Source: Motilimonas eburnea (GTDB lineage: Bacteria; Pseudomonadota; Gammaproteobacteria; Enterobacterales; CBDFNC01). From it: 64,000 nucleotides of DNA. Positions within the stretch are counted from its first letter, which is position 1, and every line of letters begins with the position of its first letter. The position numbers and the translations under genes were made by a program. The stretch lies in the NCBI RefSeq assembly GCF_021295345.1, contig NZ_JAIMJB010000001.1, positions 1 to 64,000 of the forward strand. Reading direction: 5' to 3'. The notes beneath the pieces are model-generated. The model was not told the origin of the DNA and did no database searches. It was given only the letters and a program-made list of their open reading frames with translations. Positions 18,980 through 24,251 of the stretch are shown one piece after another.

Positions 18980-19647
18980 TCGGCCACCTTACCTGCTGCT
19001 ATGTGTAAGGTTCTATCGCAGCGCTCGGCGAGGGAGGGATCATGGGTTACCAGTACTAAGGTGGTGCCGTGCTCTCGGTTAAGCTGGAATAAAAGCTCAA
19101 CAATGCGGCTGGCGGTTTGCTGGTCTAAATTGCCCGTCGGCTCATCAGCAAACAATATTTTGGGCTGGCTAATAAAGGCTCGCGCAAGGGCCACGCGCTG
19201 CTGCTCACCACCGGAAAGCTGTGAGGGTAAATGATCGGCGCGCTCAGCCAACCCCACTTGTTGCAGTAGCTGATTGGCCAATACTTCATCTTGCTTTGCG
19301 CCCTTGATTAAAAACGGTAGCATCACATTTTCCCGTGCGGTTAGGGTTGGGATCAGCAAAAAACTTTGAAACACAAAACTAATATGCTCGCAACGCAGGG
19401 CGGCACGCGCTTCTTCATCGAGTTGAGACAAGGCCTGACCAAGTAAATAAATCTCGCCAGAGCTGGCCACGTCTAATCCGGCAAGTAAGGTCATTAAGGT
19501 GGATTTTCCCGCGCCCGATGGGCCAACAAGGGCTAAGCTTTCACCCGCTTTAACTTGTAGCGAAACGTCTTGCAATATGGTCAAGCTATCCGTGCTTGTG
19601 GTAACTTGTTTAACCACATGTTCAGCTTTAATAATGGGATCAGACAT
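18976..19647 (-). CDS. ybbA: ABC transporter ATP-binding protein (YbbA-like)
   Basis: 223 residues with Walker A GPSGAGKST, ABC signature LSGGEQQR, Walker B ILFADEPTGNLD and the H-loop VTHD: a complete MacB/LolD-type ATPase. It powers the YbbP permease, whose gene overlaps by four bases. Ribosome binding site AAAAAAGG lies before the ATG at 19647. The start codon overlaps that of the divergent tesA. Confidence 0.93.
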   Translation of the reverse strand: MSDPIIKAEHVVKQVTTSTDSLTILQDVSLQVKAGESLALVGPSGAGKSTLMTLLAGLDVASSGEIYLLGQALSQLDEEARAALRCEHISFVFQSFLLIPTLTARENVMLPFLIKGAKQDEVLANQLLQQVGLAERADHLPSQLSGGEQQRVALARAFISQPKILFADEPTGNLDQQTASRIVELLFQLNREHGTTLVLVTHDPSLAERCDRTLHIAAGKVAE

Positions 19648-20254
19648 GTATAAACCTTTTTTGTTTCTTTTAATGACTGGCTTAAGCCTAATGAGTAGCC
19701 TAGTGTACAGTCAAACCTTACTGATTGTGGGTGATAGCCTGAGTGCGGGCTATCAAATGGCAGCTGAGCAAAGCTGGCCCGCCTTATTACCTGAACGCTT
19801 AGCTAAGCAAGGTAAGCCCTATCAAGTCGTTAATGCCAGTATTTCCGGCGATACCTCAGGCAATGGTTTAGCTCGGTTACCTGAGCTGCTTAAATTGCAT
19901 CAACCCGATTACGTGTTTATTACGCTGGGTGCCAATGATGGCTTACGCGGCTTTGCGCCACATATCTTACGTAACAACCTTACCAAGATGATCACTTTAG
20001 TGAAACAAGCAGGTGGCCAAGCCATGATCATGCAAGTGCAAGCGCCGCCCAATTACGGCAAGCGTTACAGTCAAGCCTTTGCTCAAGTCTTCACCGAGGT
20101 GAGTGAGGCGCAAAGTGTGCCATTATTGCCTTTTTTTCTTGAGCCTATCATTCTACAACCGGACTATATGATGCCCGATGGCTTGCACCCGACAGCAGCG
20201 GCGCAACCCCACATCGCTAATTTCGTTAGTGAGCAGTTAATTTCACATCTGTAA
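19646..20254 (+). CDS. tesA: Multifunctional esterase / lysophospholipase TesA
   Basis: 202 residues: signal peptide (MYKPFLFLLMTGLSLMSS, cleavage near VYS-QT), then the SGNH-hydrolase blocks in order: block I VGDSLSAGY with nucleophile Ser, Gly in ISGDTSG, Asn in TLGANDG, and DGLHP holding catalytic Asp and His. TesA is a periplasmic thioesterase I / protease I / lysophospholipase L1. The divergent pairing with ybbA-ybbP is conserved in Gammaproteobacteria. ATG at 19646 is preferred (GGGA six bases upstream); an in-frame ATG at 19634 is possible. The chosen start overlaps the ybbA start codon by two bases on the opposite strand. Confidence 0.93.
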   Translation: MYKPFLFLLMTGLSLMSSLVYSQTLLIVGDSLSAGYQMAAEQSWPALLPERLAKQGKPYQVVNASISGDTSGNGLARLPELLKLHQPDYVFITLGANDGLRGFAPHILRNNLTKMITLVKQAGGQAMIMQVQAPPNYGKRYSQAFAQVFTEVSEAQSVPLLPFFLEPIILQPDYMMPDGLHPTAAAQPHIANFVSEQLISHL

Positions 20255-20280
20255 CCCCATCAATATTTAATCTTTCAAAC

Positions 20281-20307
20281 TTAACTTGTTAATTATTAAC
20301 AGGTTAA
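20281..20307. promoter_or_regulatory. 27-bp A+T-rich dyad between tesA and the speA leader
   Basis: Arms TTAACTTGTTAA and TTAACAGGTTAA around TTA are inverted repeats with one mismatch. No T-run follows, so an operator is as likely as a weak tesA terminator. It does not match the ArgR or TyrR consensus as I know them. Confidence 0.5.
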
Positions 20308-20367
20308 GTTTATTGCAGTATTTCTTTTCTTTACCGTTAATTTATTTTGTTGGACTGTACAGGTTAA

Positions 20368-20454
20368 ATGTTTTTCTATTCGCGCAACCGGACTGTTGCG
20401 GGGCTAGCGCACTGCGCTCAAGCTCAAACGTGCGGCTATTGGGCTGTGAGGTAA
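20368..20454 (+). CDS. Possible 28-codon leader peptide upstream of speA
   Basis: A short ORF with ATG at 20368 and TAA at 20452-20454, AGG five bases before the ATG. The peptide begins MFFYSRNRTV, has a Cys/Gln-rich middle and ends GYWAVR. Arg codons are at positions 6 (CGC), 8 (CGG) and 28 (AGG, rare), the last one directly before the stop. The stop codon lies in the loop and at the base of a terminator-like hairpin. This is the layout of arrest-peptide or attenuation leaders such as SpeFL (which also ends in Arg-stop) and TnaC. No homologue is recognised, so coding status is an inference from layout. Confidence 0.4.
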   Translation: MFFYSRNRTVAGLAHCAQAQTCGYWAVR

Positions 20455-20480
20455 CAGCCTGTTTTTAAATTAATTTTTTT
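20441..20480 (+). terminator. Terminator/attenuator hairpin in the speA 5' region
   Basis: GGCTGT (20442-20447) pairs with ACAGCC (20454-20459), loop GAGGTA, with an extra G-T pair at the base, followed by GTTTTT and, after AAATTAA, a second run of seven T up to 20480. It ends 10 bases before the speA start. A ribosome halted at the leader stop codon (20452-20454) would cover the 3' arm. Alternatively it is just the distant tesA terminator. Confidence 0.6.
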
Positions 20481-20490
20481 GGATTGATCC

Positions 20491-22404
20491 ATGACACAAG
20501 CAACAGATCTAGAAGCCGTTCGCGCTAGCTACAATGTGCGCCACTGGAGCCAGGGTTTTTACGGTATTAATGATGAGGGTGAAGTATATGTTGCGCCTAA
20601 AGCGGACGAGCCTAACCACACCATCGCCTTAACTGAAATCAGTCAGCAGGTGCAAGCGAAAGGGTTAAGTTTACCCGTATTGGTGCGCTTTCCGCAGATA
20701 CTACATCAGCGGGTCCATAATTTATGCGCCGCGTTTAACCAAGCCATCGCTGACTACCAATATGATGAGAAATATTTGCTGGTTTATCCTATTAAGGTGA
20801 ATCAGCAGAAAGAAGTGGTAGACCAATTGCTTGCTAGCCAGCAAGACAAAGAGGTAAAACAGCTTGGCCTTGAAGCGGGCAGTAAAGGTGAATTGCTCGC
20901 CGTGCTAGCGCTGGCACAAAAAGTCAGCTCGGTCATTGTCTGTAATGGTTACAAAGACGAAGAATATATCCGCCTTGCTTTGATCGGTGAAAAGCTGGGC
21001 CACAAGGTGCATATTGTCTTAGAAAAAATGTCTGAATTGGCCATGGTGCTCAGAGAAGCAAAAAAGCTTAACGTATCACCGCGCCTAGGCTTGCGCGTGC
21101 GTTTAGCATCGCAAGGTAAAGGCAAATGGCAAGCCAGTGGCGGCGAAAAATCCAAGTTTGGTTTATCGGCTTCGCAAGTATTGCAAGTACTTGATGTCTT
21201 GAAACAAAACAACCAAGTGGATGCGTTGCAATTGGTGCATTTTCATCTTGGCTCGCAAATGGCCAATATTCGCGATGTGCGCACCGGTGTCAGTGAGGCC
21301 GCACGCTTTTATTGTGAATTACGAGAGCTGGGTGCGAACCTATTGTGCATGGACGTCGGCGGTGGCTTAGCGGTGGACTATGATGGCACGCGCAGTCAAT
21401 CGTCAAATTCCATGAACTACAGCTTGGCCGAATATGCCAATAATATCGTTTATTGTATTGGCGATATTTGTAAGCTTTATAACCAGCCAATGCCGATGAT
21501 TATTTCCGAGTCAGGTCGCGCCCTGACGGCCCATCATGCCGTGCTTATTTCAAATGTGATTGGCGCAGAAAGCTACACGCCCGAGGACATAACACCACCG
21601 GACGCCGAGCAACCTTTACTGCTGCAAAATATGTGGCGCTCTTGGTTACAGTTAAGCGGCCGCAATGATGATCGCGCCTTAATTGAGATCTATCACGACT
21701 GTCAAAGCGATTTGGCCGAAGTGCACAGTCAATTTGCCATGGGCGTGTTAAACCTGACCCAACGCGCCTGGGCGGAGCAGCTTAACTTACGTCTGTGCTA
21801 TGAGCTCAATCAAATGCTGGACACCAAAAACCGTTTTCACCGCCCCATTATGGATGAGTTAACGGAAAAGTTAGCGGATAAGTTCTTTGTCAACTTTTCG
21901 CTATTTCAATCTTTGCCCGATGCGTGGGGGATAGACCAGGTGTTTCCTGTGTTGCCTTTGTCCGGTTTAGATAAGGTGCCCAGCAGCCGTGCTGTGTTAT
22001 TGGATATCACCTGTGATTCCGATGGCACCGTGGACCAATACGTTGATGGTCAAGGCATTGAAACCACCTTGCCTGTCCCGCCTTGGTCGAGTGACAAAGA
22101 ATATTTAATGGGCTTTTTCTTGGTGGGGGCTTATCAAGAAATCTTAGGTGACATGCATAACTTATTTGGCGATACCCACAGTGCGGTTGTGGTGATGGAC
22201 GAGCAAGGCAAAGCAGAGGTGGTGTCGATTGATGAAGGCGATACGGTAGAAGACATGCTGCAATATGTGCATCTCGATGCGCAGGAGTTTAGAGCCGCGT
22301 TCCGTGACTTAATTAGCGCGAAAATCCCAGCCAGCGAGCAGCAACAAATCTACCAAGAGCTGGACTTAGGTTTAAAAGGCTATACCTATCTGGAAGAGGT
22401 ATAA
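20491..22404 (+). CDS. speA: Biosynthetic arginine decarboxylase SpeA
   Basis: Converts L-arginine to agmatine and CO2, first step of the agmatine route to putrescine. The 637 residues match the long SpeA form. The PLP-lysine lies in [11 protein letters not shown] (Lys102), and later marks are [32 protein letters not shown] and the C-terminal LDITCDSDG (second-substrate cysteine). Start ATG 20491 has GGA seven bases upstream. It is followed after 66 bases by speB, so the pair forms a pathway operon. Upstream lies a probable attenuator (20368-20480). Confidence 0.97.
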
Positions 22405-22470
22405 ACTCAACATAATTTGCCGCTAGGGCTAATACGCCCTTGCGGTATCTCATTTATAAATAAAGGCTCG

Positions 22471-23403
22471 ATGGCCATGAATGATGTGTTTTCACAAATA
22501 GATAACTCACTTTACTCCAATGGGATGACGTTTTTACGCCAGCCCTTGGTGCGAAACCCTCTCTCCACCGATGCGGATGTCGTTGTGCTTGGCTTGCCGT
22601 TTGATATGGCTACATCGGGCCGTTCAGGGGCGCGCATGGGGCCCGACGCCATTCGTCGAGCTTCGGTTAACCTAGCTTGGGAAGATCGCCGTTTCCCTTG
22701 GCCTTTTCGATTGTTTGAGCATGTGAAGCTGGTCGATGCCGGTGATTTAGTCTTTAGTTGTGGTGACAGCGCCGATTTTTGTCAGCGTTTGGAATTGGCT
22801 GCATCGCAAATATTAAGCAGCGGCAAAGCCTTATTGGGTTTAGGGGGCGACCATTTTGTCACTTTACCCTTGTTGCGTGCCCATGCTAAAAAACATGGCA
22901 AAATGGCTTTGATCCACTTTGATGCCCATACGGATACTTACAGCAATGGCAGTCGTTATGATCACGGCACCATGTTTTATCATGCTCCCAATGAAGGGCT
23001 TATTGATAAGCACCATTCGGTACAAATCGGTATTCGTACCGATTACACGGAAAAGGGCCATGGTTTTAATGTGATTAATGCGATGCAAGCCAATGACATG
23101 AGCGTTGCCGACATTGTTTCGCAAATCAAAGCCACGGTTGCCGATTTGCCGGTCTATTTAACCTTTGATATTGACTGTTTAGATCCCGCCTTTGCGCCGG
23201 GGACCGGCACGCCCGTTTGCGGTGGACTAACCACAGATAAAATACTGAAAATCATACGCGGTTTACAAGGTTTACCCCTAGTCGGGATGGATGTAGTTGA
23301 AGTTGCACCTGCTTATGATAACAGTGAGATCACCGCGTTAGCCGGGGCGACCATTGCCCTAGAGCTGCTTCACTTGTGGGCTGTAACCCATCAGTCATGT
23401 TAA
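22471..23403 (+). CDS. speB: Agmatinase SpeB
   Basis: Hydrolyses agmatine to putrescine and urea with a di-manganese centre. Metal-ligand motifs are [13 protein letters not shown] and the pair of Asp in [16 protein letters not shown]. The 310-residue length is normal. The frame is open 18 codons further upstream, but AAAGG four bases before the ATG at 22471 marks the start. The stop TAA shares bases with the stop of the convergent HBM-like gene (TTAA at 23400-23403). Works directly after SpeA. Confidence 0.96.
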
Positions 23404-24251
23404 GGCCTGTTGGCCTTATGACGCCGGCTCAATAAGATGAGGCCAATGAAAACTAAGCCATAGCTAAGCCAACGACTCGATTGCCATTGGTTTAGCTTAT
23501 GGTCGAGTTGCGCTTGCAATGACGCCAGTTGTTCTTCAATCTGATGTGCGCTGTTTCGCATCGCCTTCATTTCACCCTGTTCGTGAGCAAATCTTACCTC
23601 CTTCATTAGGTCGTCAATACTTTGTATTTGAAGTGAAAAATCGGTTACGGATTGTCGCAACTCAGGGGGAACCCCTTGCCACTTTTGCAGGCGAGACAGG
23701 GTGTTTTGAATGTCAGCTAATAGTTGATGATTATCTTCTGTTACATAATTAAGTAAGCGCTCGCGCAAACCCAGTAGTTGGGCGTAAAAAGCAATATTAA
23801 ATTCCCTTGCTTGGTTTTCTAGCTCTTTTTGCTTCACCATCAGTAAGTTGAGTTCGCTGAGCTCTTGTTGAGGGCGATAATCTAGTTCACGAATGGTGGC
23901 GGAAAAGTGCTCTTGATATTGGTTGAGTAATTGGGTTATTTGCTCAATTTGCGCCGCTGAATCGGTTGTGCAATGTCTGGCAAGGTTCACTTCTTGATAG
24001 AGCTGCCCGCTTCTGTCGAACAATTGGTTTTTATACTCGGCTTGGCGTCTCGCGATGTAATCTTTCTCATGGCGTCGTAAGGTTAATAACGAAATTTGCG
24101 CTTGTTGAATGGTGTATTGGCATTGATAAACCTGATTTTGCTGATAATAGCCGAGCTCCAATAGAATAGCGGCTAATACTAAACTGGTGATAGCAAATAG
24201 CATACCTCGATTGAGGGCTCGATTGAGTCTTCGACTAAGCGCCTTGGCCAT
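23400..24251 (-). CDS. Membrane protein with HBM-like helical sensor domain and no output domain
   Basis: 283 residues: an N-terminal helix (about 16-34), a long all-helical periplasmic region (about 40-255) starting with [12 protein letters not shown], the charged pattern typical of helical bimodular (HBM) ligand-binding domains of chemoreceptors, then a second helix (about 260-275) and only six or so cytosolic residues (RRHKANRP). HAMP, MA or kinase modules are absent, so it is not a chemoreceptor by itself. It is last in a minus-strand run with DUF3541, DUF3080 and LysR genes. AGGG precedes the ATG. Role unknown. Confidence 0.6.

Follow-up and report, generated by a model that had tools for sequence, protein, structure and literature searches.

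A promoter-like block and a probably non-coding, structured leader upstream of speA in Motilimonas eburnea

In Escherichia coli, the speA 5' UTR undergoes Rho-dependent premature transcription termination, and yqgB-speA is listed among the upstream ORFs with nearby 3' ends (available parts of PMC7815308). For Shewanella oneidensis, a terminator was predicted in the speA 5' UTR with RSSVM, and the authors proposed to test its role in speA regulation (PMC2659441, in excerpt). A leader ORF of a related gene is better documented: SpeFL, also named ORF34, precedes speF, and its translation was shown and is needed (PMC6386406 and PMC8429421, available sections). An earlier note on the DNA studied here had stated that no speA attenuator was described, which needs amending in view of the E. 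coli termination (PMC7815308) and the Shewanella prediction (PMC2659441), as far as the accessible text of both papers goes. No description of a speA leader from Motilimonas or Pseudoalteromonas was found in the open-access literature.

The locus lies in a window of 64,000 nucleotides from Motilimonas eburnea (contig NZ_JAIMJB010000001.1, positions 1 to 64,000). All features are on the + strand unless stated otherwise. The gene speA (20491–22404) encodes a biosynthetic arginine decarboxylase of 637 amino acids (TIGR01273, 868.5 bits, cut-off 624.1). The earlier note had pointed to Shewanella for comparison; the nearest named relatives are in fact other Motilimonas, among them Motilimonas cestriensis and Motilimonas sp. 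E26, with SpeA 89% identical. Three further Motilimonas genomes were compared: G001 (locus L002), G002 (M. cestriensis, L003), and G003 (L008, SpeA 69%).

Our reading, to which we assign a probability of about 0.65, is that speA has a sigma70-type promoter of its own and a non-coding leader in which a hairpin, P3, probably ends some transcription early. Transcription would start at about 20386 and yield a leader of approximately 105 nt, in which a helix P1 encloses a hairpin P2 and is followed by P3 with its T-run just before speA. P3 would most likely stop part of the transcription ahead of speA, and the leader would thereby set or tune speA output.

So read, the locus resembles the E. coli speA 5' UTR in early termination before the same gene, which was measured there (PMC7815308, in the parts available) and is predicted from sequence for Motilimonas. 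It differs from yqgB-speA in that the E. coli termination is Rho-dependent, as the same excerpts describe, and in that the ORF of the window is unlike YqgB and YqgG and is lost in relatives. The yqgB uORF lies 8 bases before speA. With the S. oneidensis speA 5' UTR the locus shares a terminator-like structure, known there by prediction and compared by its description only (PMC2659441, excerpt). SpeFL/ORF34 is alike as a regulated leader of a polyamine-synthesis gene with Arg codons in the peptide; its ORF is translated, whereas that of the window is unconserved and has a start codon that is probably not transcribed (PMC6386406 and PMC8429421, in part).

The 28-codon ORF (20368–20454) encodes MFFYSRNRTVAGLAHCAQAQTCGYWAVR and is present as the earlier note described it, with Arg codons at positions 6 (CGC), 8 (CGG), and 28 (AGG), the last directly before the TAA at 20452–20454. 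AGG is indeed rare: in 33 long ORFs of the window, it accounts for 2.4 of every 1000 codons. A further AGG four bases 5' of the ATG (20368–20370) could serve as a weak ribosome-binding site. The ATG lies 123 bases 5' of the speA start (20491), which places ORF and hairpin within 125 bases of speA as claimed, and the final base of the TAA is also the first of the 3' arm of P3. When the 236-base tesA-speA gap was shuffled 3000 times with dinucleotides preserved, 26% of the shuffles contained an ATG-initiated ORF of at least 28 codons, and 64% did so when GTG and TTG starts were allowed. An ORF of that length with Arg before the stop was found in 0.9% of the shuffles (4.3% with GTG/TTG), a trait that was picked after the fact and is one among many features that could have been selected. 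A 60-codon TTG ORF overlaps the 28-codon ORF in another frame.

Comparison of the sequences revealed that the ORF is lost in L002 and L003, the loci of the closest two Motilimonas genomes. Both have no ATG in this frame, carry a 9-base deletion there, and show TAG in place of a TAT of the window; the frame ends in Gly-stop or the equivalent, with no Arg before the earlier stop. Over 20386–20454, the differences at codon positions 1, 2, and 3 number 6/8/7 between the window and L002 and 6/9/6 between the window and L003. There was no excess at third positions of the ORF frame against either locus, and a conserved peptide would not be expected to show so even a distribution. The leader of L008 is unrelated and contains no such ORF. 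Searches with the ORF product gave no match in Pfam and NCBIfam up to E 10, and BLASTP detected no resemblance to YqgB or YqgG of E. coli. The outcome that the earlier note had named as speaking against its proposal, loss of the ORF in close relatives with retention of the hairpin, was thus observed.

The start of the ORF falls within a promoter-like block (20351–20384) that recurs before speA in relatives. It consists of a predicted -35 element TGGACT (20351–20356), a predicted -10 element TTCTAT (20374–20379), both assigned by pattern and matrix from relatives, and a GC-rich stretch TCGCG (20380–20384) resembling a discriminator. The transcription start is predicted from the -10 at 20386, give or take about 3 bases. 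The counterpart of the -10 is TTTTAT in L002 and L003, and GTTAAT in L008. The ATG of the ORF sits in the spacer between the two hexamers.

The pattern T[AG]GAC-N17-NWNNAT followed by a GC-rich block was searched up to 250 bases from speA in 147 upstream loci, representing 145 or fewer genomes (G107 and G127 are included twice). At a spacing of 17 bases, 42 loci matched (41 genomes, one in twice), and every other spacing between 12 and 23 bases yielded at most 1 match. Five shuffles of the 147 loci yielded 0, 0, 1, 0, and 1 match at spacing 17. GCG, GCC, or CCG follows the -10 in 42/42 strict matches by construction of the pattern. Since pattern and spacing were first spotted by eye in sequences that included Motilimonas, and the pattern was written after this inspection, the promoter tests are not fully independent. 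Many of the 105 loci without the pattern belong to families further removed and to Vibrio-like genomes, where the upstream sequences are different; the block is therefore not general. Genome-wide, the strict pattern matched once in 4.59 Mb, at a site other than speA, compared to 7 matches for the reversed control.

A matrix built from 14 non-redundant loci of genera other than Motilimonas, in which the spacers vary while the hexamers stay, had its best match at one and the same position in each of the four Motilimonas upstream regions. Out of 1000 shuffles, 34 scored as well for the window, 2 for L002, and none for L003 and L008. The copy in the window is the best position within its 260-base upstream stretch. 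It is also the weakest of the four and does not match the strict pattern, owing to its -10 TTCTAT and TCGCG. Two hexamers about 17 bases apart are thus kept in place among relatives as in a sigma70-type promoter, less clearly so in the window.

An A/T-rich block (20331–20350), often ACGACAAA, located 12–20 bases 5' of the -35, is common to the 14 non-redundant relatives; by its sequence it resembles an UP element or operator. The GC-rich stretch after the -10 resembles the discriminator of rRNA promoters. Promoters of the rRNA type share with the speA block an A/T-rich upstream block and -35 and -10 elements at 17 bases, and with the block of the relatives also GCGC after the -10. A search for 16S rRNA in the nearly complete assembly of M. 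eburnea gave no match, probably because the draft does not include the rRNA operons.

The hairpin P3 (20440–20461; TGGGCTGT / ACAGCCTG) was obtained by folding. Its core, GGCTGT (20442–20447) with ACAGCC (20454–20459), is extended by two G-T pairs, and the T-run TTTTT (20462–20466) follows; a second, more distal T-run, TTTTTTT, also precedes speA. The local stability is -11.6 kcal/mol (z -3.0). Only one terminator-like site was detected in 2 kb, below the shuffled mean of 2.1, and the fold of 20340–20600 was no better than shuffles (z +0.98); the weight of P3 comes from its retention in two relatives. A T-A pair of the window is A-T in L002 and L003, and a C-G pair is T-G. A GC-rich stem followed by a T-run, as in an intrinsic terminator, is found in the window, where the tail TGTTTTT after the stem makes termination plausible; the T-runs are poorer in L002 (TAAAATTTT) and L003 (CAATTTTTT). 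By eye, AGCTCAA (20421–20427) could pair with TTGGGCT (20439–20445) in the window as a possible antiterminator, and no counterpart was found in L002.

The gene upstream was read as tesA in the earlier note. It is followed by an A/T-rich hairpin of 16 bp (20277–20311; -15.9 kcal/mol, z -6.4, 0/200 shuffles as good), which is likely the end of the upstream transcript, as judged from folding. An inverted repeat was seen by eye at this position in L002 and L003 as well. At its other end, the gene read as tesA (ATG 19646) overlaps at the start codons (19645–19648) with a divergent gene on the - strand (start 19647), which appears ABC-ATPase-like by eye.

The remaining part of the leader fold was predicted by folding and alignment. 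The helix P1 pairs CCGGACT (20388–20394) with CGTGCGG (20429–20435) over 20388–20435, with two internal mismatches in the window, and the hairpin P2 pairs GGGCT (20401–20405) with AGCTC (20421–20425) over 20401–20425. In L002 and L003, the arms of P2 are AAGCT/GGCTT and the loop region is 9 bases shorter. The leader of the window from about 20386 folds at -34.6 kcal/mol (z -2.1, 2/200 shuffles as good); when the cut was extended slightly, z was -1.5. Single-sequence folds of L002 (z -0.6), L003 (z -0.7), and L008 (z +0.1) were near shuffles, and for 33 selected leaders that have the promoter block, the mean z was -1.34, with z < -1 in 19 of them. The three-leader consensus of P1, P2, and P3 from an unguided MAFFT alignment reached -20.5 kcal/mol (z -4.7, 1/500 column shuffles as good). 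A hand alignment gave -23.6 kcal/mol (z -6.1, 0/500 shuffles), a score that is biased because this alignment was anchored on the arms. The consensus is a fold of three genomes (window, L002, and L003), two of them close. In P2, a G-C pair is replaced on both sides by A-T, and in P3 a T-A pair likewise by A-T; five further pairs changed on one side only. P1 is supported by invariance only, as it is unchanged except for one pair broken in the window. A stretch of 16 bases, CAACCGGACTGTTGCG, is identical in all three leaders, again from three genomes of which two are close.

Of 394 genomes scanned with a covariance model from these three leaders, 3 had a strong match (77.5 to 100.5 bits), a single one per genome and located at speA. 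Weak matches of at most 28.6 bits appeared in 27 further genomes; in the nine of these in which the position of speA is known, none lay at speA. Among 53 sources, strong matches were limited to the same three Motilimonas leaders, and the fold is missing from the fourth Motilimonas (L008/G003). The Rfam library gave no match to E 1 in 19000–24000 of the window, nor any at gathering thresholds in the loci of 18 relatives.

The first explanation to be weighed is that of the earlier note, in which the 28-codon ORF is translated and, in the presence of arginine or a polyamine, a ribosome stalled at Arg-stop covers the terminator so that more SpeA is made. The layout in the window alone, with rare AGG before TAA, a stop codon that overlaps the hairpin's 3' arm, and a possible weak ribosome-binding site, invites it. 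With ATG, length, and Arg-stop gone in both close relatives where the hairpin stays, differences spread evenly over codon positions, a length common in shuffles, a product resembling neither a known family nor YqgB or YqgG, and a start inside the promoter-like block, we regard this model as highly improbable. The ORF looks like chance since its start sits within that conserved block, and we judge it fortuitous; its ATG would be promoter DNA, absent from the message if transcription begins at about 20386. The comparison thus removes a plausible-looking leader peptide upstream of speA. A shorter peptide might instead begin at a conserved ATG overlapping the -10 (MRPTGLLRS in L002 and L003), as 48 of 57 loci have a -10 that continues into ATG (e.g., GTTAATGCGC), often with an Arg codon next. 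The codon at this position is ATC in 8 loci and ATT in the window, and reading on from it gives scattered lengths of 4 to 39 codons, with two loci stopless in the 300 bases read. TTAATGCGC is explained by a -10 plus a GC-rich discriminator, and the constant spacing of 17 bases favours promoter DNA over a start codon. This peptide is scarcely credible and was rejected; a promoter -10 with its discriminator can mimic a start codon.

The remaining alternatives concern P3. That it is merely a distal terminator of tesA would agree with its position downstream of this gene on the same strand, and is very unlikely given the far stronger hairpin directly after tesA and the promoter-like block between the two. 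From the simpler view offered in the earlier note, the chance ORF stands and the distal tesA terminator is unlikely, and the hairpin with its T-runs appears to be part of the speA leader, as the note had supposed, being kept in two relatives while tesA has its own hairpin. A possible though unlikely variant keeps promoter and leader and leaves P3 unregulated, the folds protecting the mRNA end, pausing the polymerase, or constantly tuning speA translation. The poor T-runs after P3 in L002 and L003 would fit, as would Pseudoalteromonas-like loci, in which the Shine-Dalgarno is covered in 24/24 and the second hairpin lacks a long T-run. The terminator-like stem and tail of the window speak against it, as does the premature termination measured before speA in E. 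coli, although that is Rho-dependent (PMC7815308, available parts). A further proposal, which we consider doubtful, is that P1 and P2 with their invariant unpaired bases form a genus-restricted sensor of agmatine, arginine, or a polyamine that decides termination at P3, a peptide-free attenuator. Should termination at P3 respond to a metabolite, polyamine synthesis from arginine would be controlled without a peptide. The promoter with a non-coding leader and partial termination at P3 is the reading we prefer.

Structured speA leaders recur in block-carrying relatives, but one shared fold is absent, and the leader sequences vary between groups. In 24 Pseudoalteromonas-like leaders (19 distinct), two hairpins chosen by us had 92.3% pairing, and 7 of their pairs varied in both bases (equalled in 4/500 shuffles; covariation score 0/500). 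An invariant GGCCC/GAGGTC pairing lies over the Shine-Dalgarno. This leader (e.g., L055:3403-3506:-) is a candidate cis-regulatory RNA and had no Rfam match in the scanned loci. A MAFFT alignment of 12 other Pseudoalteromonas-like leaders, forming a second group, yielded no common pair with RNAalifold; single folds of these leaders do show hairpins. CsrA-type GGA loops were considered by eye and did not look general. An element that is missing from the short gap after speA in the window, CGCGGTATAAATACCGCTCCCACAAAGTGCGAC, is present in two copies in M. cestriensis just 3' of speA, before the next gene (L003, approximately 1290–1430, unoriented).
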